Notes under the pieces: generated by a model
Seen by the model: only the letters and a program-made list of their open reading frames with translations
Told to the model about the DNA's origin: nothing
Databases searched by the model: none
Part shown: positions 1,314-13,235 of the stretch, in pieces
How the letters are laid out: every line of letters begins with the position of its first letter
Numbering within the stretch: the stretch's first letter is position 1
Source: a virus
DNA: 44,849 nt
Reading direction: 5' to 3' (one strand)
Virus record (IMG/VR): IMGVR_UViG_3300005836_000235
Coordinates: 1 to 44,849 of that record
Program-made: the position numbers and the translations under genes

Positions 1314-2456
1314 TCAGTCAAAGATGAAGGCTTTCGGTTCATCTTGCCCCAGGAATCGCGAAGCCATCGATCTGCTGTAGGCGCCCGCGTCGCAGAATGC
1401 GAGGAGATCCCCGACTCTCACTGCCGTGCTCAACACGGTCCTCGCCAGGATGTCTTTTGAAAACGTCGTCTTCCCAACGATCGTGCAGGGCGTTTGCTGT
1501 GCCGAGGCCTCGGATTCACGCAACGGAATCACCCGGTGGCACTCCTTGGGATGATGCAGCGGCCTTGGGAAGACGGCCACGCTTCCGTCCACGGCCACGT
1601 AGTTCTGTCCCCGGAGACACTTGATGTCGGTGATTCGCGTTATGAAGACTCCCGCATCGGCGATCAAGCCTCTTCCAGGTTCGAAGATCACGATGATCTC
1701 CCTTGACAGACGCTTGCGGAGCTGCCTCGCCATCCTGTCGATACATTGGCCAAAGCATTTCAGATCGAACTGTCCCTGTTCCCCTGTGTAGTCGATTCCG
1801 ATTCCTCCCCCGATGTTCAGGTAGTTCAGAGTGGGAACCTCGGCGGCAAACTCGAATAGATACTCGAGGCGCCGGACGAGTTCCATCGCATCGAGAAAGT
1901 TTGTTCCGGCATACATGTGCAAACCGGAGATCTGCCGGCCATGCGAGCTCGAAGAACGCACGATTCGCCGCGCTGTTCCTTCATCCATCCCGAGACGGTC
2001 TGATTCCGCTTCCGCCAGACCGGCCAGGGCTCCACAATTGAGCCGCAGTCCGGCTTCCGTGCCTCCCGATGAAAACCACTGCTCTAACTGCGACTCGGAA
2101 TCCAGGTTGCAGGTGATCCCGGCATCAACGAGTTCGCACATCAACTCCTTGGGAATACCGGAAGAAGTGAACTGGATCTCAGGTGGCGAGAACCCGCAAC
2201 TCAGCGCAAGCTGCAAATGCCGGGATGAATTCACACATGCGCCCACTCCTCCGCGGCTGATGGTGCTCAGCACCGCCGGCTCGTCGTTCGCCATGGTCGC
2301 GAAATATAACCGGAAGCCCTCACTCGATATGGCGTCCCTGATCTCTTCAATTCGCTTCCGGATTCTCGACAAGGAGTAAACATACACGGGGGTCCCGGTG
2401 CGTTCGGCAATCTCTGACAACCACACTCTGTCCATCCCCTGCATGATTGACGCCAT
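1314..2456 (-). CDS. Fold-III PLP decarboxylase homologue lacking the catalytic lysine
   Basis: 380 residues, the normal size for the ornithine/diaminopimelate/arginine decarboxylase family (alanine-racemase-type barrel plus beta domain). Family signatures visible: VYVYSLSRIRKRI at the N-terminus, GLHMYAGTNF, the phosphate-binding NIGGGIGIDY, EPGRGLIADAG, VDGS and near the C-terminus DAGAYSRSMASRF. The PLP-lysine motif, normally YAxKAN, reads FATMAN: Met55 replaces the lysine that forms the Schiff base. The cysteine of the conserved CxSxD active-site loop is also absent (VGKTTFSKDIL). The ATG overlaps the upstream radical SAM stop as TGATG, so translation is coupled. With lysine lost, classical decarboxylation is doubtful. 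It may bind PLP or a substrate non-covalently, serve as a partner subunit, or use a different chemistry. Confidence 0.88.
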   Translation of the reverse strand: MASIMQGMDRVWLSEIAERTGTPVYVYSLSRIRKRIEEIRDAISSEGFRLYFATMANDEPAVLSTISRGGVGACVNSSRHLQLALSCGFSPPEIQFTSSGIPKELMCELVDAGITCNLDSESQLEQWFSSGGTEAGLRLNCGALAGLAEAESDRLGMDEGTARRIVRSSSSHGRQISGLHMYAGTNFLDAMELVRRLEYLFEFAAEVPTLNYLNIGGGIGIDYTGEQGQFDLKCFGQCIDRMARQLRKRLSREIIVIFEPGRGLIADAGVFITRITDIKCLRGQNYVAVDGSVAVFPRPLHHPKECHRVIPLRESEASAQQTPCTIVGKTTFSKDILARTVLSTAVRVGDLLAFCDAGAYSRSMASRFLGQDEPKAFIFD

Positions 2457-4537
2457 CACGACGCGTTCACCAGTTCCTCATCCAGAGCGGAATTCAGCGA
2501 CGCCATGATTGTTTCCGCATCGACGCCATTTTCCGCCCCGCCTTTGCCCGTGTAAGCGATCATCCAGTCTGCCACGGTGAGAGGGCCTTCTTGCAGGGAC
2601 TCCAGAATTTCGAAAATGACGTTGTCAACGCTCAACAGTCTAACTTTACCTTCCGTGTTGACGTGCCACACCAGGTAAAACGGCGTTTCGGCATACTCAA
2701 GGGCCGACCGGCCTTCCAGCGCTGGCGAGACGTCAAAGTCCAGGGCCAAGCTGGCCAGAACGGATCCTTTTGCCAATTGCGTCCCCAAGGTCACTGATGC
2801 AGGCCGGTCGAGCGCGTTGGCCGACGCCGTACGGTAACTCGCCATGGCAGTGGCGGCAAGGCCGGGGGAATTCTCCTCGGCAATGCGCAAGTTCGCCCAC
2901 AATGCTTCCGCGGCTGCTAGCGCCGGCCGCGGTGGATTGTTGCCCGCTTTCAATCCTTGTAGGACGAACTCGGCAAAAGCAGCGGGCGAACCATAGGTCC
3001 TTCGAAACGGCGCTGCCGAGCGGGCTTCGTTTCTGGCGCGAATCCAGCTTTGCCAGTCTCGAAAGACGGCCGCCATCCCTCCACTGCGCTCGGCCAACGC
3101 CAATGACGGCGCAAGCACCGACTCGACAAGGGGAGAGAATTCGTCCACCCCTTCCAGCCAGTCCCTTCCTTCGCCCGGAAATGGCGGCCGGTAGTATGCT
3201 CCAAACAGGTCCTGATCTCCGGCGATCAGCTCGCGATTCGCTCCATCCAATGCCGGGTCGAGCGGCAGATCCACGAAATGTCCGGTACAAACCAATCCTG
3301 TGAGCTTCGGATACAGACTGGAAGCGGCAAAAGGGCAGTATCCGAAAATGTGCGCGGGACGCGCTCCTGCCCGCAGAGATCGTTCAAATGCGCCGAGGGT
3401 AGCTTCGAAGCTCCCCGCGTCCTCTGACGGAAAACCAACGATGAATCCCACATTCGGCGAGATCCCAACCTGCCGGCACATCTCGATCACTTCAAACGAT
3501 CGCTCGACCGGTATGTCTTTCCTGATCTCTCGAAGGATGCGCTGAGAACCGCTCTCGAATCCAAAGTAGACCGCAGTGCATCCCCCTTTCGCCATCCGTT
3601 CCAGCAGTTCGAAATCCACCGTGTCCGTGCGCGCGCTGCAGGTCCAGTTCACGGGGCTTCCCACGTCAATGAGCGCATCGCACACGGCCATCACCCAGGC
3701 GCGGTTTGTGGTGAACAGGTCGTGTGTGAAATGAACTCGTTTCGAGGCGTAGGCGCGCTGCACCGTCCTCACCTCCTCAACGATGCGCCGCGGAGACTTG
3801 ACACGGTGCTTTCGCTGCCAGAACGGCGCTGTCGAGCAGAACTCACACTGAAAGGGGCATCCTCGGCCCACCTCTAAAAAAACCTCCTCACCCTCACTGG
3901 GTTGGTACAGGTCGAATGCTGGATAGGCCAAGTCATCCAGATTGTCCACCAAGGCTCTGTCCCGCCCATTCGTGTTGACTTGCCGCGGGAAAACAAGTGG
4001 CGTGGGCTCCCGACGTTTGTCGTACCGTTGAACGACACCCGGAATCGCGCCACCCTCCCCATGCCCCTGGTAGGAGGCCAGCAATTCCCAAAACGCAAAC
4101 TCCCCTTCGCCGACTACAACCGCATCGACCGTCTGGTGTCGACTAAGTGTCTCAGCGGCTACCGCCGAGGCGTGCGGACCGCCGAGGACAATCTTCGCGC
4201 TGGGGATTTCCCGCTTTACCGCAGCGGCGATCTGCAGGACGTGGTGATAGGAATCACATTCGGTCATGATGCCCACAACATCAGGCTTCCGCGAGGCGAT
4301 CTCGCTGCCAAGCGCTTGATAGAAGCGCGTATCCAGCGGAATCTGGCCCGAGGCGATTCGTCGATTCGTATCGAACAAGGCGCAGTGGGCTTCGGGCATC
4401 CGCTCGCGTAGCGTCCCGGCAAGCGAGAGCAGCCCCAGCGGAAGAAACCCGTACATCACTCCCGGGGCGGGCTGAAAGTCGTTCTGCAGCACCGCGGCAT
4501 GCTGCACATGGGGGCTTGTGGCTAGCAATACTTTCAT
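2456..4537 (-). CDS. Cobalamin-binding radical SAM enzyme with C-terminal PqqD-like domain
   Basis: 693 residues. The N-terminal ~200 residues form a B12-binding Rossmann domain (KPDVVGIMTECDSYHHVLQI, then VLGGPHAS and DAVVVGEGE). The radical SAM core follows, with a CX3CX2C cluster motif in GRGCPFQCEFCST (Cys227, 231, 234), as in methyltransferases and related class B enzymes. The last ~80 residues (from about VRLLSVDNVIFEILESLQEG) resemble a PqqD/RRE winged helix, which in RiPP enzymes binds the leader peptide. The start is taken at the ATG at 4537, whose ATGA overlaps the upstream stop; an in-frame extension further upstream looks like antisense of the neighbour. Likely role: C-methylation or another B12-dependent radical modification of a peptide or small-molecule intermediate. 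Substrate unknown. Confidence 0.9.
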   Translation of the reverse strand: MKVLLATSPHVQHAAVLQNDFQPAPGVMYGFLPLGLLSLAGTLRERMPEAHCALFDTNRRIASGQIPLDTRFYQALGSEIASRKPDVVGIMTECDSYHHVLQIAAAVKREIPSAKIVLGGPHASAVAAETLSRHQTVDAVVVGEGEFAFWELLASYQGHGEGGAIPGVVQRYDKRREPTPLVFPRQVNTNGRDRALVDNLDDLAYPAFDLYQPSEGEEVFLEVGRGCPFQCEFCSTAPFWQRKHRVKSPRRIVEEVRTVQRAYASKRVHFTHDLFTTNRAWVMAVCDALIDVGSPVNWTCSARTDTVDFELLERMAKGGCTAVYFGFESGSQRILREIRKDIPVERSFEVIEMCRQVGISPNVGFIVGFPSEDAGSFEATLGAFERSLRAGARPAHIFGYCPFAASSLYPKLTGLVCTGHFVDLPLDPALDGANRELIAGDQDLFGAYYRPPFPGEGRDWLEGVDEFSPLVESVLAPSLALAERSGGMAAVFRDWQSWIRARNEARSAAPFRRTYGSPAAFAEFVLQGLKAGNNPPRPALAAAEALWANLRIAEENSPGLAATAMASYRTASANALDRPASVTLGTQLAKGSVLASLALDFDVSPALEGRSALEYAETPFYLVWHVNTEGKVRLLSVDNVIFEILESLQEGPLTVADWMIAYTGKGGAENGVDAETIMASLNSALDEELVNAS

Positions 4538-5910
4538 GCGGTCTGCTCCATTTCGTGCGTCTTGGTTCGAACCACCGGCATGTTGCTCTGTGTTCCTGTC
4601 GTGGTGGCTTCCAGCAGTTCTGTCCTCTGAATCGTGCTCTTGATTTCGAATTCCGACGCCCCGCATTGAAAGTAGTTGCCATGCCTGGCGTACGACATAG
4701 CGGGACAGCGCGAGGCGCAGTAGTAGCGCTCGTCATTAATTTCGCAGTCCTTGCAAGTGTTCTCGAAGTTCGCCCAACTGTACTGGCGGATCTCCCAATC
4801 GTCTCTCCATACGTCGGGAAACGGCCTCTCGGAAATATTGCCAGAAGGAAACAGGTTCTCGGCCGCGCACATCGTGCAGGGGAACACGGTTCCATCGGCG
4901 GCAACATAGCCGAGAAACCGTCCGCTCGAGCATCGCCGTGTCATGTACGCCAGGCTCAGCCCGTAATTGAAAATCACTCCCACGCACAAGCCCGCCTTTC
5001 GGTGATACTCATGCTCCCATTCGCATTCCTGCAGCCAAAACCGGCCAGCCGCCTCTACGTGTTCTTCGGTGTTTTCCAGATCGGCGCGCTCTTTTCCCCG
5101 GCCGATGGGACTGAACGGAACACTGCGGATCGACACCTGATGCTGTTTGGCCCACACCACGAGCTGCGCGAGTTGGGCGACATTGCCGCTGTGGGTGTTT
5201 GTCATGATGTTGGTCAAGAAACCGTGTTTGTGCGCGCGGACGATCGCTTCGAGCGCGAGCGTCGTGTGAGGTTCGAAAGACCATGCGCCTTGGGCCGGCT
5301 CAATCGAGCACAATTCCGTGTGGGGCAGCTGTTTCAGTCGCGACTGCGCATGCGGATGATGCAGATCATCGACGGAGACGCTGAGGATCACGCCATCGGT
5401 GGGAAGGCTCGATAGTAACTTGTCGCTCAATAGCAGGCCGTGGGTGGCGACACCGACCAACAGGCCTAACTCCCTTGCTCGGCGTACCAGTAGGGCAAAG
5501 TCGGGATGCAGCGTCGGTTCGCCGCCAGTGAAGGCGACGGCCCACACTCCCATCTGCGCCATCTCCCCGAGCACTTCCAGCCACCTTGGAGTAGACATCT
5601 CCGCTGTCCGCGCCTGCCCTCCGTGAATGTAGCAATGCGGGCAGGCCAGATCGCACTTTCGCGTGATCTCGAGCCACACAAGCGGAGGAGTGGTCAGATG
5701 GAAGGGTTCGTGGATCGGGAGCTTTTCGAGCAGGAAGGGTTCCAGTTCCGCGCGTGTGACGCCCGGGCCCAGTACCGTCATCGCCAGCGGGTTCGTCAGT
5801 ACGATCTCTCCGTCCGGAAACCCAGCAATAAATCCGAACTCTTCACGATTGAAACGGACTTTGCGGGTATCTCGACCCCCATCGGGCACGCGGACTGCAC
5901 CATCAGGCAT
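4534..5910 (-). CDS. SPASM-domain radical SAM enzyme (peptide-modifying type)
   Basis: 458 residues. After an N-terminal ~65-residue region that may be a degenerate RRE, the radical SAM motif is ITRKCDLACPHCYIH (Cys86, Cys90, Cys93). GVWAVAFTGGEPTLHPDF follows, the usual SAM-contact motif. The C-terminal SPASM region carries many cysteines (CSSGRFLGYVAADGTVFPCT, then CKDCEI, YYCASRCPAM and FQC), expected to hold two auxiliary 4Fe-4S clusters, as in PqqE and sactipeptide/ranthipeptide synthases. I chose the ATG at 5910: GGAG sits about 9 bases upstream and the gene overlaps the PqqD-like gene by 8 bases. Likely role: radical crosslinking or another modification of a ribosomal peptide. Confidence 0.92.
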   Translation of the reverse strand: MPDGAVRVPDGGRDTRKVRFNREEFGFIAGFPDGEIVLTNPLAMTVLGPGVTRAELEPFLLEKLPIHEPFHLTTPPLVWLEITRKCDLACPHCYIHGGQARTAEMSTPRWLEVLGEMAQMGVWAVAFTGGEPTLHPDFALLVRRARELGLLVGVATHGLLLSDKLLSSLPTDGVILSVSVDDLHHPHAQSRLKQLPHTELCSIEPAQGAWSFEPHTTLALEAIVRAHKHGFLTNIMTNTHSGNVAQLAQLVVWAKQHQVSIRSVPFSPIGRGKERADLENTEEHVEAAGRFWLQECEWEHEYHRKAGLCVGVIFNYGLSLAYMTRRCSSGRFLGYVAADGTVFPCTMCAAENLFPSGNISERPFPDVWRDDWEIRQYSWANFENTCKDCEINDERYYCASRCPAMSYARHGNYFQCGASEFEIKSTIQRTELLEATTTGTQSNMPVVRTKTHEMEQTA

Positions 5911-6247
5911 GCTTTCGCTCCTCGACAAATCCGTGCGCGAATAGTGTTTGTACGATCCCGTGAACCTTCTTTATGTTGGCGACCTTCGATTTCGGGTCCG
6001 CGCCGGCGGATTCGGTGCACCGCGCCACTACTTCATCCACCGTCCTGGCACCATCCAGGTATCCCCACGCTTTGTAGCCCACCTCGTCCAGTTCCAGGAA
6101 GCGCCGCCTGGCAAAGTTGTGCAACAGGATCCCCGGCGGTGCGATCGTCCACAACACGTTGTCACTGCGCTCCAGAACTCGCTCGTCCGCGGACTCGGTA
6201 CGCGCTTTCTTCTCGGGATTATGCTTCGCCGATGCGCTCTGTCTCAT
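5903..6247 (-). CDS. PqqD-like RiPP recognition protein
   Basis: 114 residues. After a charged N-terminus the protein shows the PqqD/RRE pattern: beta strands around NVLWTIAPPGILLHNFARRRFLELD, then GYKAWGYLDGARTVDEVV, and a C-terminal helix pair ending IKKVHGIVQTLFAHGFVEE. PqqD-family domains bind leader peptides and present them to radical SAM partners, here most likely the SPASM enzyme encoded immediately downstream. The start overlaps the QueA-like stop (ATGA), so the genes are translationally coupled. The domain is the strongest sign that the operon acts on a ribosomal peptide. Confidence 0.82.
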   Translation of the reverse strand: MRQSASAKHNPEKKARTESADERVLERSDNVLWTIAPPGILLHNFARRRFLELDEVGYKAWGYLDGARTVDEVVARCTESAGADPKSKVANIKKVHGIVQTLFAHGFVEERKHA

Positions 6248-7272
6248 ATGTACAAAACAGCGTCGCCAAATTCGTAGAACGACAGCCTCCGCGCCGAGGC
6301 TTCGTGATAGGCTTTCATCACCAGCTCGGCGCCGGCAAAGGCCGCATCCAGCACGATCAGACTTGTCTGGTACTGGTGGAAGTTAGTGAAGTACCCGCCT
6401 ACCGCTTTGAACTCGTAGCCCGGTGTGATGTACAAACTGGTCCGCCCGGTTTGCGCGCGGACTGCGCCTTGATGCGGAGCCGCACTCTCCAGTGCCCGCA
6501 GGCTTGTGCTTCCACAAGCAAATACTCGCTTGCCCGTCCGGTGCGCTTCGTTCACTGCTTCCGCAGTCTCCTCCGGAACGACGAACGATTCCTCCCACAT
6601 GACGTGTTCCCCCACGTCTTCTTCAAGGAACGGCAGCCAACTGCCGACCGAGTGCAGAGTTACGAATCGCACGCTGACTCCGCGCGCCTGGAGCGCCGCC
6701 ACCAAGGAAGGGGTAAAGTGGAGGCCGGCCAGTGGACTCTCCACGGTGCCTTCTTGCGTTGCGTAGTATGGATTGAGATGATCGACTGTCCAATTGTTCT
6801 CGTAGAAGAAACCCGGTATCGCCTTCCCTTGCGCTTTTAGCAAATCGCGCAACCCGGTGCCCAGCGACGATACTCTCGCCAGCCTGTATTTTGTGACTCC
6901 CATCTCGTCCACCTGAATCTGGTGGCCGCCGGAGAGTTGTATTCTTGATCCCACCACGACGTCGTGCGTGGGAAAGATCCGGCAAAGGCCCTGGTCCGCA
7001 GTCTCCAACTCGACAAAACGCAATTCGACCAAGCCGCCAACGACCGTCCGGCCCTTCAAGACGCCGGGGATTCTCTTGCTGTTGTTCAGAACGAAAACGT
7101 CCCCAGGGTTGCACCAACCGGGAAGATCCGCCACGCGCGACATCGATGACTTCCCTTTCGCTCGATCGACCACAAGGAGCCTGCCCCGGTCTCGATTCCC
7201 AAGCCGTATCTCACGCGGCGTCCCTTCGATGTTCTCGGGAATCAGTTGATATCTGAGATCGCTGATGTTCAT
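6244..7272 (-). CDS. QueA-family S-adenosylmethionine ribosyltransferase-isomerase homologue
   Basis: 342 residues from the ATG at 7272, the usual length for QueA. Recognisable blocks: MNISDLRYQLIPENI (N-terminus), NPGDVFVLNNSKRIPGVL, YATQEGTVESPLAGLHFTPS (family PTAGLHFT), GSTSLRALES, and the C-terminal ITPGYEFKAVGGYFTNFH followed by RLSFYEFGDAV. QueA transfers and rearranges the ribose of SAM onto 7-aminomethyl-7-deazaguanine in tRNA. No other queuosine gene is present here, and this gene is coupled to PqqD and radical SAM genes, so the acceptor is probably not tRNA. Divergent positions (SPLAGLHF for APTAGLHF, for example) support a specialised paralogue. An in-frame GTG at 7380 would add 36 residues that do not resemble the family. 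Confidence 0.87.
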   Translation of the reverse strand: MNISDLRYQLIPENIEGTPREIRLGNRDRGRLLVVDRAKGKSSMSRVADLPGWCNPGDVFVLNNSKRIPGVLKGRTVVGGLVELRFVELETADQGLCRIFPTHDVVVGSRIQLSGGHQIQVDEMGVTKYRLARVSSLGTGLRDLLKAQGKAIPGFFYENNWTVDHLNPYYATQEGTVESPLAGLHFTPSLVAALQARGVSVRFVTLHSVGSWLPFLEEDVGEHVMWEESFVVPEETAEAVNEAHRTGKRVFACGSTSLRALESAAPHQGAVRAQTGRTSLYITPGYEFKAVGGYFTNFHQYQTSLIVLDAAFAGAELVMKAYHEASARRLSFYEFGDAVLYI

Positions 7273-7413: not shown

Positions 7414-7884
7414 CTACTGTGCGACGCCGACGGTGGCGGCTACGGTCGCAATCCGCTCGTTCAGCACGCGGACGCCCTTGGCGGTGGTAGCCAACTTGCC
7501 CGAAATCACCGGCTGACCCACCAGGGCGTTGTGGATATGGCTCATCTGCCAGTTCTTATCCTGATCCGAATTCCAGATCACCGTCTGACGGATGGTTGTC
7601 GTGATGCCGTCCACAGTGACCTGCAGAGTTTGCGCGAGCACAGCCTGGTCCCCCGATGGCTGGACGTCGCTGCTGATTACCTGCACTTTCCGTTTTGTGC
7701 GGAACGTCGGCTGAAATGCTTCCTGGAACCGTTTGCGACCGACCATTGGTTCGACCGAGTTGAGGTTGAACACGCGCACGTCCTCTCTTAGATAATCGAA
7801 GAAGCGCGCGTCACCCGAGGCGTAAGCCTTGAGCGAGTCTCTCATTGCACGGTCCAGTTTCGGGTCACCTTTTGCGGATGGCAT
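7414..7884 (-). CDS. NTF2/SnoaL-like protein with C-terminal tail; candidate RiPP precursor
   Basis: 156 residues from the ATG at 7884, which has AAGGGAG nine bases upstream; the ATG at 7893 would sit directly on that site. Residues 1-122 have the pattern of an NTF2-like cone: helix LDRAMRDSLKAYASGDARFF, then LREDVRVFNLN, VGRKRFQEAF, and strands ending IWNSDQDKNWQMSHIHNA. The last ~30 residues (ISGKLATTAKGVRV then LNERIATVAATVGVAQ) extend beyond the fold. This is the first gene after the promoter, just ahead of the modification enzymes. That position suggests a precursor with a folded leader and a C-terminal core, by analogy with nitrile-hydratase-like leaders of proteusins. The alternative is an NTF2-like enzyme or binding protein of the pathway. 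Confidence 0.8.
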   Translation of the reverse strand: MPSAKGDPKLDRAMRDSLKAYASGDARFFDYLREDVRVFNLNSVEPMVGRKRFQEAFQPTFRTKRKVQVISSDVQPSGDQAVLAQTLQVTVDGITTTIRQTVIWNSDQDKNWQMSHIHNALVGQPVISGKLATTAKGVRVLNERIATVAATVGVAQ

Positions 7885-8083: not shown

Positions 8084-11000
8084 TCAATAGATAAAGGAGC
8101 GGTCATCACTCGTGGGCAACGGGATCGTCCATCCGAATACGCAGAGATGGTCGTAAGCCCAGAGCTTGATCGAGGGCAGGCCGAGACGGCTGACGCTCAC
8201 GAACTCCCTCGTCCAGGGCCAAGTACCGTAGTAGAGGCCCATCAGATAACGGCAGTGAGCCTGGTCCCAGGCGAGTTCCGTCCACGGATACCGCGCGCAG
8301 CGTATCGCCTGGTCCAGATTGTGGTTGATCCCCGGATACTGATAGCCCTCGATCAGGAACGTGTCGAAGCCCGAGCCCGCGCGAGTGGTCCATTGCGAGG
8401 GCAGGTTGATGTACCGCGTTAGCTTGCAGTTGTCCGGATCATTCACGTCCATTGGCCACAGGAGCTCGAACACAGCCGACGGGCACTGCGACAGAACGTA
8501 GCTCTGGATGGCGGCCACATAGTTGTAAAGGCGGATCCGAAGAAAGTTGGCATCCGCGTAGCTGTTGATTGATGGATCGTCGTTCGGCGTGTGAAACGTG
8601 GCGAGCGCGCGGCCCAACGCCAATTGTGCCGCGGCCTGCGTGTCGGCATCGTAGAATGCCATCCCGGACGAGTTGGCCTGGAACCACCAGAGGATTTCCC
8701 CGAACTGGAGCTTGGGCGTCAGTCCCGCTGTCAGCATCAAGCCCGCCATCGCGGCGTGAGCCTGCCCGATGTAGCTCTGCGGCCCGGAACTGAAGGCGAT
8801 CTGCGAACTGTTCAGCGTGCCGAAGCCGGTGGCGGTCTCGACCGCCGTGCCGTCAGGAAACCGCTGGAGCCACACCTGGCCGGCGACCGAGGGCTGGCTC
8901 GGGTCTTCAGGCGGTTGCACCAACTCCTGCGAGAATGAGCAGACGGCGCTCATGTTGTTCGCCTTGAGCAGACCGAAGAAGTCCGCGTTCCAGTCGCGGA
9001 ACGCCCGGTTGAGCACTGGCGTCTGGGTCGGATCGATGACCCATTTCGTGCCGTACGTTCCGCCTTGCAGATCGCCAGTCACCGTGGCTTGGCCGCTGCC
9101 GGTATTCGTGCCGGGCAGCGCGGCGTACACGTGATACTGCCACACGCTCGCGAACGAATGCGATGTGATCGTGAGGACGCTGCCGGAGGCCGTGGCCCAG
9201 ACGCCATCGAAGATCGCATTGATGAAGTTGGCGAAATGCCGGGCGATGGTGTCGTTCGTATCCTGCCCGCCGAAGACCGTCTTGCCGATCGCGGAGCCGC
9301 CAACGTGCAACCAGACGACGTCCTGATCGCTCCAGTTGCCCGAGAACGTCACCGTGCATGTGGGGTACGACGGATTTGACGCCACCGATTGCTTCCACCA
9401 GAAGACGCCGCAGTAGTGGTCGATCTCGCCCAGCAGCCCAAGTTTCTGAATGTTCCACACCAGCCTTTGCGGCGACAGCTTGTACGTGTTGTCCGTGTCG
9501 AAGTCGGTGGCCACGGCTACGGCAGTGGTAGTGGTAACCGGATCCGGAACATCGCTCGCCACCGCGCATTCGAGGAAATCGAAATAGAAGTACCAGCCCT
9601 GGCTCGACGCGTTCTTGTTGCCGGATAGCGTGATTACCACCTTGTGCTGCCCTGCCGCGACGCCGGAGAACAAGAGGCGCCGCGTTTGAGACGTGGTGGC
9701 GGCGGGGTAGTAGCAGTCGACCGTTAGCGGCGCGCCGCCATCGACCGTCGCGGTTACCATGCCGCAGTTGGTGTCGAGGCGGGTGCCGACGTAGATATCG
9801 TGCGTGGACTGGCAGTGCGTCTCGACGGTGACGCTGGCACCGGAAGCGGCCGCCCGGATCGCGCGTCCCTGGCTCCAGAAAGCTAACGCACCGTTCACCG
9901 GATCGTTACCGGGAGCGGCCTCCCAGTATCCGGAAGTGCTCACCCATGTGCTGTCTTCTTCGATGCGTACCGAACCCGGCCCAGCGATCTTGAGCGACCG
10001 CTTGCTCGCTGGGTTGCTCGTCACCGTCCAGTTCGTGACCACGAGCTGCCACTCGGTTGACTGGTATGCCTGGCTGTTGGGCAAGGCGGGCGCGATGGTC
10101 CACCAGACTTTGTCGACATTGCTCCAGCCGGACCCATTGGACAAAGCTGTAAAGTCGATGTGAACGTGCCATGATACGTTGTCCGAAGAGCCGCCGGAGA
10201 GGTTCCAGTTGACCGCTGTGAAATACAAGCGGCTGCTGCTGTTGTTGTCCGTCTGATAGAACGCGACGATGTTGCCGTCGGCACCGGGCGCGGCCGTGAT
10301 CACCAACTGGTTCGGCAACACCACGGCGGCCGAGACCACGACGGGACCGTTCTGCACCCAGTTGATGGCGTTGATCTGCTGGGCAATGGACTGGAGGATC
10401 GACGCCGCGGTTGTCTGCGTCAGAGAGTCGGAAGCCGATCCATCAGAACTCGAAACCGCCACCGGCCCGGAGACCCCAGCTTTCAACGTGATGAAAATCT
10501 CGTTGCCGGAGGTGCCGCCCGTGGTGGCCGTGCAGTTCGGATCGGAGGCGTTGATCTGCCCGGCGATGTTGCTCGCGACGCCGGCGCTATTCAGCGAACC
10601 TTCCAGGCAAGAATACGTCGCCGACCCGATCGTGACCCAGTGGTTGTATGCGGCGTTGCCCTGCCACCACATGGCCTGATCGGTTGTCGGGTGGGCCGCC
10701 GAAATCGCGGGGCTGATGAAGGACTGGTTCTGATACCACAGCGTGACCTTGTCGCCGGGCTGCGGATTGTTCAGGTTGAGAACGTAGGTGGCCGAGGCGC
10801 CCGTTCGGCCAGTCGTATTACACGTGACCGTGATGCCAGGCGTGCCGATCCACTTCACATCGTTGTGGCCGACGCCGTTGATGGAGTAATCGAGCGTGTT
10901 CCAGTCGGTCCACGCGTTCTTGAGCGACTCCCAGGATTGAATGCCTTGCCACGTAACATCGAAGTCGAGCACGAGGCCCGTGAGATCGCCGTCTGGAAGA

Positions 11001-11197
11001 TAGGAGAACAGCGGGTGCCCGAATGGATCGTCCTTCTGGAACAGGACCAGCACGACGAAATCCGCCATGTCGCGGAAAACGCCGGAGACGGTGAATCCAG
11101 TATCCGAGGCGCCCCACAGCGCGGCGGCTGCGCCGTAGTCGTCGAAGCCCTGCAGGTGCATCGTGCGATGCGGTTGCAGTTTGTAGATCGGGTCCAT
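8084..11197 (-). CDS. Large tail protein with barrel-like C-terminus (putative tail fibre or virion glycosidase-like)
   Basis: 1037 residues, directly downstream of the tail-tip gene in the phage reading direction, with the ParA/HEPN island between them. The N-terminal ~200 residues are beta-rich (MDPIYKLQPHRTMHLQGFDD, later GLVLDFDVTWQGIQ). The middle (about 420-560) resembles a carbohydrate-binding or jelly-roll module (EAAPGNDPVNGALAFWSQGR; GQHKVVITLSGN). From about 580 the sequence looks like an alpha/beta barrel (LKANNMSAVCSFSQEL, PKLQFGEILWWFQ, FELLWPMDVNDPDNCK, FDTFLIEGYQYPG). I do not recognise a named family. Position and domains suggest a receptor-binding or surface-glycan-acting tail protein. 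It is the last structural gene before the radical SAM operon. Confidence 0.7.
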   Translation of the reverse strand: MDPIYKLQPHRTMHLQGFDDYGAAAALWGASDTGFTVSGVFRDMADFVVLVLFQKDDPFGHPLFSYLPDGDLTGLVLDFDVTWQGIQSWESLKNAWTDWNTLDYSINGVGHNDVKWIGTPGITVTCNTTGRTGASATYVLNLNNPQPGDKVTLWYQNQSFISPAISAAHPTTDQAMWWQGNAAYNHWVTIGSATYSCLEGSLNSAGVASNIAGQINASDPNCTATTGGTSGNEIFITLKAGVSGPVAVSSSDGSASDSLTQTTAASILQSIAQQINAINWVQNGPVVVSAAVVLPNQLVITAAPGADGNIVAFYQTDNNSSSRLYFTAVNWNLSGGSSDNVSWHVHIDFTALSNGSGWSNVDKVWWTIAPALPNSQAYQSTEWQLVVTNWTVTSNPASKRSLKIAGPGSVRIEEDSTWVSTSGYWEAAPGNDPVNGALAFWSQGRAIRAAASGASVTVETHCQSTHDIYVGTRLDTNCGMVTATVDGGAPLTVDCYYPAATTSQTRRLLFSGVAAGQHKVVITLSGNKNASSQGWYFYFDFLECAVASDVPDPVTTTTAVAVATDFDTDNTYKLSPQRLVWNIQKLGLLGEIDHYCGVFWWKQSVASNPSYPTCTVTFSGNWSDQDVVWLHVGGSAIGKTVFGGQDTNDTIARHFANFINAIFDGVWATASGSVLTITSHSFASVWQYHVYAALPGTNTGSGQATVTGDLQGGTYGTKWVIDPTQTPVLNRAFRDWNADFFGLLKANNMSAVCSFSQELVQPPEDPSQPSVAGQVWLQRFPDGTAVETATGFGTLNSSQIAFSSGPQSYIGQAHAAMAGLMLTAGLTPKLQFGEILWWFQANSSGMAFYDADTQAAAQLALGRALATFHTPNDDPSINSYADANFLRIRLYNYVAAIQSYVLSQCPSAVFELLWPMDVNDPDNCKLTRYINLPSQWTTRAGSGFDTFLIEGYQYPGINHNLDQAIRCARYPWTELAWDQAHCRYLMGLYYGTWPWTREFVSVSRLGLPSIKLWAYDHLCVFGWTIPLPTSDDRSFIY

Positions 11198-11533
11198 TGT
11201 TGAAGATTGCCCTTATGATCCGTGGAGAAGCAACAGAGGGCTTCGACGGATACTCTGGCGTAACTGCAGTCGCGTGAGGTCACTTCTACGCATCGCCGAC
11301 TTGAACGAAGCCGCTGGCGCGCCGGACGCTACGCGTGGCCTGCGAGGGACGTGTTTTCCTGCCGTCGGGGCTGCACCGGGAGTCGCAGCGGTGACGGTGG
11401 GACTCGCTACGTCATTCCCTTATTGCATCTATAACTTACGGATTCCATGTTGCCGCCTCAATCACAAGACGCCGCTAATGCCAGGCTCTTCGCTGTGGTT
11501 GTGTTAAACTTCTTGCGATCCATCTACAGTTTT
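11198..11533. other. Non-coding segment upstream of the ParA-like gene
   Basis: About 336 bases without a convincing gene, between the divergent tail-protein and ParA-like genes. An extended -10-like TGTTAAACT ends at 11510, 23 bases before the ParA ATG, but no good -35 is visible. No strong Shine-Dalgarno precedes that ATG, so the transcript may have a very short leader. No repeat marking an insertion edge was found. Confidence 0.4.
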
Positions 11534-12574
11534 ATGGCCAAGATTATCTGTCTGTTCAATCATAAAGGAGGCGTTAGCAAGACCACGACTGCTTTCAACC
11601 TGGGCTGGATGATGGCCCTCAAAGGCAAGCGCGTGATTCTGGCCGACTTTGACCCTCAGTGCAATCTGACAGGGATGGTCATGGGCTTCAAGAAGGTAGA
11701 CGACCTCTCTGCAATCTATAGCAGCGCACCGCCCAACAACGTGAAGGACGGCCTTGCACCGGCGTTCGAATCGCAGCCGCGACAGATCGCGCCTGTAAAA
11801 TGCGTTGAGGTTCAGGGCGTTGAGAATTTGTTTTTGCTGCCCGGTCACATCGAGCTTGCGGAGTATGAAACGACTCTCGGGATTGCGCAAGAACTCAGCG
11901 GATCGCTGCTGGCCCTACGCAATTTGCCCGGCTCTCTTCGTTTTCTGTTGGATGCAACAGCAGTTAAGTATGAGGCTGACTACATTCTCGTAGATATGAG
12001 TCCAAGCCTCGGACCGGTCAATCAGAACTTATTGACAACCTCGGATTTTTTCATTGTTCCGCTGCACCCAGATTATTTTTCGGCGATGGCGCTTAGCTCA
12101 CTTGCCAAAGTCCTGCCGCGCTGGAAGGCTTGGGCTGAAACGGCATTCAGCATCGACGCTTTGGCGAACGCGGACTATCCCTTTCCACGGCCCCAGCCTA
12201 TTTTCATCGGAGCCGTGATTCAGAAGTACAGGCCCCGCATGGGCAAGGCGAGTAAGGCCTTTCAAAATTGGATCGATCAATTGATCACGGGTCTGAAGAG
12301 TACGCTTCTGCCGGTGCTCGAAAAGTCAGGGATGGTCCGGGACAATCTATTTAAAGAACGATTGGGTCTTGAACCTTGGAATCCCATTTTGGAGGTGGCG
12401 GATTTCAATAGCATCATCGCGTTGTCGCAGGAGCATCAAGTCCCTGTGTATGCCCTGACTGCGGAGCACGCAGAACAGCAAGGCGCTGTCTGGGACCAAA
12501 CGAAAAAGAGCATGGACGTCTTCTTTAAAGCCTTTGCCGAATGCGCAGAGAAGGTGTTCGCTCTAACGAATTGA
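11534..12574 (+). CDS. ParA/Soj-type ATPase
   Basis: 346 residues on the strand opposite the phage genes. The deviant Walker A motif KGGVSKTTTA starts at Lys11 and is followed by VILADFDPQCNLTG, as in ParA/MinD ATPases. The Walker B region is DYILVDMSPSLGPVNQNLLT, followed by FIVPLHPDYFSAMALSSL. The C-terminal half (GAVIQKYRPRMGKASKAFQ) has the usual layout of ParA-like proteins in accessory regions. There is no ParB or parS here; the partner is instead a HEPN protein starting seven bases downstream. An ATP-dependent switch controlling the HEPN partner is more likely than plasmid partitioning. Confidence 0.88.
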   Translation: MAKIICLFNHKGGVSKTTTAFNLGWMMALKGKRVILADFDPQCNLTGMVMGFKKVDDLSAIYSSAPPNNVKDGLAPAFESQPRQIAPVKCVEVQGVENLFLLPGHIELAEYETTLGIAQELSGSLLALRNLPGSLRFLLDATAVKYEADYILVDMSPSLGPVNQNLLTTSDFFIVPLHPDYFSAMALSSLAKVLPRWKAWAETAFSIDALANADYPFPRPQPIFIGAVIQKYRPRMGKASKAFQNWIDQLITGLKSTLLPVLEKSGMVRDNLFKERLGLEPWNPILEVADFNSIIALSQEHQVPVYALTAEHAEQQGAVWDQTKKSMDVFFKAFAECAEKVFALTN

Positions 12575-12581
12575 AGCCCGC

Positions 12582-13235
12582 GTGACCCCTATCGCGCATT
12601 TTGAGGCACTCTGGACGCGGTGTAGCGAACTTTCCGCGCTACATGCGTATCTTGCAAACAACGTGACGGGCGCATTACATCCGGAAGAGATCTTGCGCGC
12701 GGAATGGGTCGCCAGAGTTGCCGCTCTGGATCTGTATGTTCACGAATTGACGGCACAGCGAATGGTCGCCATTTTTGAAGGGCGGCTTCCATCGACTGCA
12801 GCTTATCAGCGATTTGTGGTGTCGAACGAAACGCTTGATAGAATCCGGCAGGCGATAGTGGCCAATGTGCCATCCGCCATCATAGCTCCTGCCTCTGCCA
12901 GCGCTGCATTTGATCTGCATGTTCGAACGGATCTCGGCAGGAAGACTCTTCAGTGCCCAGACGATATCGCTGATGCGGTTAGGCTTTGTTCCGGCGTGGA
13001 ATTGTGGAATGAGGTGGCTGCTCGCCTCGGAGCACCACCTGCCAAAAAAAACGATGCTGCCAAGAGCATAAAGAAAACTCTATCTCTCGTGGTCGAACGG
13101 CGCAACAAGATTGCCCATGAAGGCGACCTCCAGCCGCCGCCGCTGCGGGAGCCGTGGCCTATCAGCCAAGCCGACGTTGCCTTTGTTGCGCAACAGATAG
13201 AAAGCATCGTGCGAGCTATCGACGCCATTGTCTAG
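12582..13235 (+). CDS. HEPN-domain protein (RiboL-PSP-HEPN-like), putative RNase toxin
   Basis: 217 residues, GTG start seven bases after the ParA stop, so the two are co-transcribed. The protein is largely helical, with LWTRCSELSALHAYL and EWVARVAALDLYVHELTAQR near the start. It ends with the HEPN signature VVERRNKIAHEGDL, where Arg174-N-K-I-A-His179 fits the RX4-6H active site of HEPN RNases. After it comes the helix DVAFVAQQIESIVRAIDAIV. HEPN domains are common effectors in toxin-antitoxin, abortive infection and other anti-phage systems. I infer that the ATPase upstream senses infection or restrains this effector; the pair is not one I can match to a named system. Confidence 0.8.
   Translation: MTPIAHFEALWTRCSELSALHAYLANNVTGALHPEEILRAEWVARVAALDLYVHELTAQRMVAIFEGRLPSTAAYQRFVVSNETLDRIRQAIVANVPSAIIAPASASAAFDLHVRTDLGRKTLQCPDDIADAVRLCSGVELWNEVAARLGAPPAKKNDAAKSIKKTLSLVVERRNKIAHEGDLQPPPLREPWPISQADVAFVAQQIESIVRAIDAIV

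Follow-up and report, generated by a model that had tools for sequence, protein, structure and literature searches.

A phage-borne radical SAM operon headed by an NTF2-like protein with a conserved C-terminal tail, a candidate folded-leader precursor of a mycofactocin-like pathway

Introduction

The mycofactocin pathway works on a C-terminal Val-Tyr behind a Gly, by means of a chaperone, a SPASM enzyme, a creatininase-type peptidase and a flavoprotein (PMC7491314; PMC10885120), and other RiPPs are trimmed by TldD-type peptidases (PMC10885120). A B12 radical SAM enzyme containing a RiPP recognition element (RRE), ApyD, methylates the beta carbon of Tyr (PMC10635010). Precedent for a large folded leader comes from the nitrile-hydratase-like leader (PMC12455567).

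The operon described here lies in a soil phage and combines relatives of several of these proteins with an NTF2-like protein, for which an earlier note on this DNA had proposed the role of RiPP precursor with a folded leader. We find this moderately probable: a RiPP-type, mycofactocin-like pathway in which an NTF2-fold leader precedes a conserved C-terminal core. The proposal gained from conservation of the tail, an RRE match, an RRE-like C-terminus on the B12 enzyme and two types of RiPP-type peptidase in related clusters; one of the modifications suggested with it, ribosylation, did not hold as a general step.

Results

The operon and its first gene

The window (the whole stretch of 44,849 nucleotides that was analysed) is a virus record that has genes for tail tape measure, head, portal and terminase proteins. 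Six co-directional minus-strand genes run from 7884 down to 1314, with the NTF2-like gene at their head, as had been claimed, followed by the genes for the QueA-like, PqqD-like, SPASM, B12 radical SAM and LysA-fold proteins (Table 1); no peptidase gene is present in this operon. It is flanked by a non-contractile tail sheath-like gene (8084-11197) and a ParB/methyltransferase gene (3-605). The NTF2-like reading frame opens with an ATG at 7884 behind a ribosome-binding site (AAGGGAG..ATG) and its stop codon occupies 7414-7416.

Table 1. Features of the operon, with positions in the window
Feature	Position	Strand	Basis
NTF2/SnoaL-like protein with C-terminal tail, 156 aa; proposed precursor	7414..7884	-	Pfam, alignment, AlphaFold, RBS
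NTF2-like domain, residues 1 to about 127; proposed folded leader	7504..7884	-	AlphaFold, Foldseek, Pfam
Variable linker, about residues 127-136	7477..7506	-	17% mean pairwise identity, length varies
Conserved tail GVRVLNERIATVAATVGVAQ, residues 137-156; proposed recognition segment and core	7417..7476	-	Alignment
VAQ, last three residues after invariant Gly153; candidate minimal core (inference)	7417..7425	-	Alignment and analogy with the mycofactocin G-VY core
QueA-like SAM ribosyltransferase-isomerase homologue, divergent paralogue	6244..7272	-	PF02547, E 2.8e-71
PqqD-like protein, RRE	5903..6247	-	PF05402, E 8.5e-5, slightly below cut-off
Radical SAM/SPASM enzyme, CX3CX2C	4534..5928	-	Nearest NCBIfam models MftC, PqqE
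B12-binding radical SAM enzyme, ApyD-like, RRE-like C-terminal domain	2456..4537	-	NF050148, E 8.7e-76, below cut-off
LysA/DapDC-fold protein, Met at PLP-binding Lys position (FATMAN)	1314..2459	-	Alignment

Pfam, AlphaFold and Foldseek agree with the division into an NTF2-like domain and a tail of roughly 30 residues that had been read from the letters alone, and place the end of the domain at about residue 125-127. In Pfam the protein matches SnoaL_3 (E 5.7e-9, 36.8 bits against a cut-off of 22) and DUF4440 (E 3e-8, above cut-off), and TIGR02246 covers residues 15-122 under its cut-off. AlphaFold, run with eight family members, gave an NTF2-like fold with a pLDDT of about 90 up to residue ~127, beyond which there is a low-confidence, loosely attached helix (135-151) and then a disordered end; the best Foldseek matches are ketosteroid-isomerase/NTF2-like folds. 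Given the confident fold, the loose, low-confidence end and the nature of the closest solved structures, the domain-plus-tail reading is right. The tail has no Cys, as had been stated, and also no Tyr, Trp or Asp; it is free of aromatic and sulphur residues.

Relatives fall into three cluster types

When plasmids were searched by tblastn, the SPASM enzyme and the NTF2-like protein returned the same five records. Sinorhizobium meliloti GR4 pRmeGR4a and S. medicae T10 carry the whole operon in the same gene order, followed by a CPBP-type membrane protease gene. A genome scan with a SPASM alignment added Hymenobacter perfusus, a Bacteroidetes MAG, Mesorhizobium, Bradyrhizobium, Reyranella and a Terriglobia MAG, and a phylum search added one further acidobacterium. 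The pairing of NTF2-like and radical SAM genes is found in the phage, two Sinorhizobium plasmids, Mesorhizobium, Bradyrhizobium, Reyranella, Hymenobacter, the Bacteroidetes MAG and two Acidobacteriota; the family spans bacteria of three phyla (as plasmids, MAGs and genomes), three gene contexts and about eight independent lineages. Every genome or record searched that carries the SPASM radical SAM gene has exactly one match to the NTF2-like family (9/9). The cluster is rare, the SPASM gene being present in 1/385, 2/396, 1/291, 1/298 and 1/247 genomes of the sampled groups with the query genomes themselves counted in. Viral-contig scans with the NTF2-like, SPASM and B12 proteins or alignments detected no other phage copy, nor did a tblastn search of phages with the NTF2-like protein; a plasmid search with the tail only found just the two Sinorhizobium copies.

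Three cluster types can be distinguished, all with the NTF2-like protein and the SPASM and B12 enzymes. Type A (phage, Sinorhizobium, Hymenobacter, Bacteroidetes MAG) has the QueA-like and PqqD-like genes. Type B (Mesorhizobium, Bradyrhizobium, Reyranella, Terriglobia) has genes for a phosphodiesterase-like protein, a DegT aminotransferase, a split transketolase, a TldD-like peptidase and others, with the NTF2 end of the cluster on a separate contig in Bradyrhizobium and Reyranella. Type C, from one acidobacterium, encodes a dihydroorotate-dehydrogenase-like flavoprotein, a creatininase and a nucleoside-deoxyribosyltransferase-like protein. The creatininase (L027) matches the MftE model with E 8.7e-34, below its cut-off, and exceeds the cut-off of the ordinary creatininase model; together with the TldD-like protein of type B it makes up the RiPP-type peptidases of the family. 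No stand-alone PqqD-like gene was recognised in types B and C. At L009:3558-19075, L011 and L012, DUF3050, BtrH-like and sulfatase-like genes were also seen in type B.

The QueA-like gene is absent from types B and C, both of which keep the NTF2-like protein and its tail. Since two of three cluster types lack it, ribosylation, which the earlier note had listed among plausible modifications, cannot be a general step. The same absence leads us to rate as very improbable the simple scenario in which the tail is incidental and the protein is an ordinary SnoaL-like enzyme, such as a hydrolase for the epoxide formed by a QueA-like enzyme. Limonene-epoxide hydrolase and ketosteroid isomerase do have the same fold, and the QueA-like gene does adjoin in type A, but such an enzyme would also have to be reconciled with a domain that has few invariant polar residues and a tail that is the most conserved part of the protein.

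The tail is the best-conserved part of the NTF2-like family

Among 11 aligned sequences, mean pairwise identity is 34% in the domain, 17% in the linker and 54% in the last-20-residue tail, and tail identity exceeds domain identity in 55/55 pairs. As the best-conserved 20-residue block of the family, with the domain more variable, the tail is not a chance extension. Permutation of columns reaches the tail value in 0.03% of trials (p 3e-4, with kinship ignored). The tails read GVRVLNERIATVAATVGVAQ in the window, EIRVLNERIATVAATVGVAQ in Hymenobacter, AIDVINEKIASMAAVLGVAQ in the Bacteroidetes MAG, GIRVLNEKIATISAVLGVAQ in Sinorhizobium, [DS]VTLLEERVATAAAAVGTPK in Mesorhizobium, Bradyrhizobium and Reyranella, NISVLEERVASASAMTGTPK in Terriglobia and AIKVLADRIATVSAQVGVAQ in the type C cluster. 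Window and Hymenobacter tails are identical at 18/20 residues with 14 synonymous codon changes, and those of Mesorhizobium and Bradyrhizobium have the same protein sequence with 12 synonymous changes. Because residues are kept despite synonymous codon changes, selection acts on the tail peptide.

All 11 aligned sequences end in GVAQ or GTPK, with the stop exactly three residues past an invariant Gly; a twelfth, Mesorhizobium L006, has a different end, apparently through a frameshift. This case aside, each homologue found carries the tail and comes from a genome or cluster that also has this radical SAM/SPASM gene, two points on which the earlier note had let its proposal depend. The motif also sets the cluster proteins apart from other SnoaL proteins: of 28 SnoaL_3 matches examined in cluster-bearing genomes, it is present in the five cluster proteins and absent from the other 23, and 21/23 of these non-cluster paralogs stop within 17 residues of the domain. 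In 337 genomes from the order of the Mesorhizobium genome, the family profile found no match beyond the cluster member.

Conservation of the tail would suit a docking motif equally well. In that case the NTF2-like protein would be an accessory enzyme or scaffold whose tail docks the PqqD-like protein or a radical SAM enzyme, with some other molecule as the substrate. NTF2 folds are often enzymes, a short conserved segment behind a variable linker is typical of docking motifs, and AlphaFold leaves the tail as a low-confidence helix unpacked from the domain. We nevertheless think this scenario unlikely. Our reasoning for this is that (i) the conservation runs to the last residue in exact register with the stop, which docking motifs rarely need; (ii) no separate small conserved precursor ORF common to the loci was found in the gaps examined; and (iii) invariant positions number only nine in the family alignment, with three in the tail, and the domain has no invariant catalytic acid.

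The other cluster proteins

The PqqD-like family profile matches TbiB1, an RRE protein that binds lasso-peptide leaders, with E 4.4e-6, and matches PqqD itself more weakly. The C-terminus of the B12 enzyme gives 76% with the PqqD-like profile in hhalign, weaker RRE evidence than that for the PqqD-like protein, and the N-terminus of the SPASM enzyme had no match to the RRE profile. Relatives of known structure of the SPASM enzyme include the peptide modifiers SkfB, PqqE and YydG. Three of the enzymes fall short of the models nearest to them: the SPASM enzyme scores 87.7 bits with the MftC equivalog TIGR03962 (cut-off 265), the B12 enzyme 255.7 bits with the ApyD model (cut-off 750) and the QueA-like protein 242 bits with the QueA equivalog (cut-off 324). 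In the QueA-like subfamily (window, L060, L067, L068) ESP[LM]AGLHF and VGSWLPFLE replace AAPTAGLHF and LGTF, and in two Bacteroidota genomes the gene is additional to a canonical QueA.

The LysA-fold protein has Met at the PLP-lysine position in 8/8 aligned homologues, failing the lysine test for a diaminopimelate decarboxylase, and FATMAN is invariant (window, L002, L003, L007, L009-L012). With Met in place of the PLP-binding Lys it probably does not function as a standard decarboxylase. This lysine-less homologue of fold-III PLP enzymes is kept in type A and type B clusters and is related to BtrK, whose substrate is a carrier-bound amino acid.

That relationship, together with the BtrH-like gene, the conserved residues at the C-terminus and the occurrence of a TldD homologue in the ammosamide pearlin cluster as well, would suit a reusable carrier, on whose C-terminus a small molecule is assembled and then cut off, as with pearlins or amino-group carrier proteins. 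We consider this quite unlikely for the NTF2-like protein: the annotated genes of the clusters include no recognised aminoacyl-tRNA-dependent ligase, and RRE and SPASM enzymes are better suited to the modification of encoded residues.

The phage setting

Of 42 phage relatives with the same sheath gene, none carries the operon, and in those that align, similarity to the window ends at about 8084. Behind the sheath gene (8083/8084) some relatives have genes of anti-phage defence type, namely HmaB/HmaC, a DruE-like helicase, PDC-M27C and TIR proteins, a ThsA-like protein with a TIR protein, or a restriction-enzyme match; others have ordinary phage genes or nothing recognised. A variable cargo site behind a tail sheath-like gene was observed in L069, L071-L073, L079, L091 and L107. 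In S. meliloti GR4 pRmeGR4a, MzaD/MzaE-like defence genes follow the type A cluster (L003:14718-24000). Elsewhere in the window, the plus strand has ParA-like and weakly HEPN-like genes (11447-13235) flanked by two tail genes of the minus strand, possibly a second cargo site of the phage.

The Hma-, Druantia-, Thoeris- and TIR-type genes at the same site and the Mza genes beside the Sinorhizobium copy are our reason for raising chemical anti-phage defence. The fuller proposal, in which an NTF2 leader gives rise to a new class of peptide product and the QueA-bearing form is phage and plasmid cargo, perhaps with such a function, is one that we regard as doubtful. Against defence models the operon gave only generic radical SAM core matches (to pVip and PDC-M51A), and the contents of the site are mixed, so that a defence role is a lead, not a result.

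Discussion

We favor, as moderately probable, the possibility that the NTF2-like protein is the substrate of the pathway and not one of its enzymes. Three features expected of a RiPP cluster are present: a candidate precursor encoded next to modifying enzymes, an RRE/PqqD-like domain (as a stand-alone copy recognised in type A and not in types B and C), and separable leader and core segments in the form of domain, variable linker and conserved tail. In the scheme that we infer for substrate, cleavage site, order of steps and product, the NTF2 domain would be the folded leader of a gene-encoded precursor, joined by a flexible linker to the conserved C-terminal segment. The PqqD-like protein and the RRE-like C-terminus of the B12 enzyme would hold this precursor while the SPASM and B12 radical SAM enzymes modify its C-terminal residues. 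By analogy with the mycofactocin Val-Tyr that follows a Gly, the candidate core would be the VAQ or TPK past the invariant Gly. A peptidase, of creatininase type, of TldD type or supplied by the host, might then free a small product, to be elaborated by accessory enzymes: the QueA-like enzyme in one variant, a transketolase, an aminotransferase and a phosphodiesterase-like protein in another, or a flavoprotein and a nucleoside-deoxyribosyltransferase-like protein in the third.

Several observations count against the precursor reading. The proposed core is conserved, although typical RiPP cores vary (those of PQQ and mycofactocin are conserved), and Tyr, Trp, Cys and Asp, on which such enzymes commonly act, are missing from the tail. 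There is no peptidase in the window operon, the type C creatininase passes the cut-off of an ordinary creatininase model, and the family comprises few independent lineages, about eight. Types B and C are also without a recognised stand-alone PqqD-like gene, and the SPASM N-terminus is without an RRE match.

To our knowledge there is no report of an NTF2 fold as the gene-encoded substrate of a peptide-modifying pathway, and a literature search for an NTF2/SnoaL RiPP leader returned nothing relevant among the papers it covered. If the precursor reading is true, a further protein fold would join the few known large RiPP leaders, and a QueA paralogue and a lysine-less LysA-fold protein would enter peptide natural-product biosynthesis; the type B cluster looks like an uncharacterised natural-product pathway. 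It would also offer a handle for genome mining, namely a SnoaL domain with a G-[VT]-[AP]-[QK] C-terminus beside a radical SAM/SPASM gene, a combination that would escape methods geared to short precursor ORFs. The phage copy raises the question of why phages carry such a pathway.

Compared with described systems, the second gene shares family and overall sequence with QueA, the tRNA preQ1 ribosyltransferase-isomerase, but falls under the equivalog cut-offs, has altered motifs and occurs as an extra copy beside canonical QueA. Aminopyruvatide (ApyA-ApyD) shares the ApyD-type B12 radical SAM enzyme with its RRE-like domain; type A differs in having no MNIO, P450 or methyltransferase, a tail without Tyr and an ApyD score of 256 against a cut-off of 750. 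As in pearlins (ammosamide, 3-thiaglutamate), a C-terminal product would be freed from a larger protein or peptide, and TldD homologues occur in some clusters, but no peptide aminoacyl-tRNA ligase was recognised. Proteusins and Nif11-leader RiPPs likewise place a large folded leader ahead of a C-terminal core; here the leader would have a SnoaL/NTF2 fold, with no NHLP or Nif11 leader domain, and the core would be short and conserved instead of hypervariable. With mycofactocin (MftA-MftB-MftC-MftD-MftE) the clusters have in common a precursor (here proposed), a PqqD-like chaperone and a SPASM enzyme whose closest NCBIfam model is MftC, a creatininase and a flavoprotein in type C, and a conserved putative core at the extreme C-terminus after a Gly. 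They differ from it in that the tails end in GVAQ or GTPK and not in an MftA-type Val-Tyr, that scores lie well under the mycofactocin cut-offs, that the proposed precursor is a folded NTF2-like protein where that of mycofactocin is a peptide of ~30 aa, and that a B12 radical SAM enzyme and QueA-like and LysA-like proteins are present in addition.
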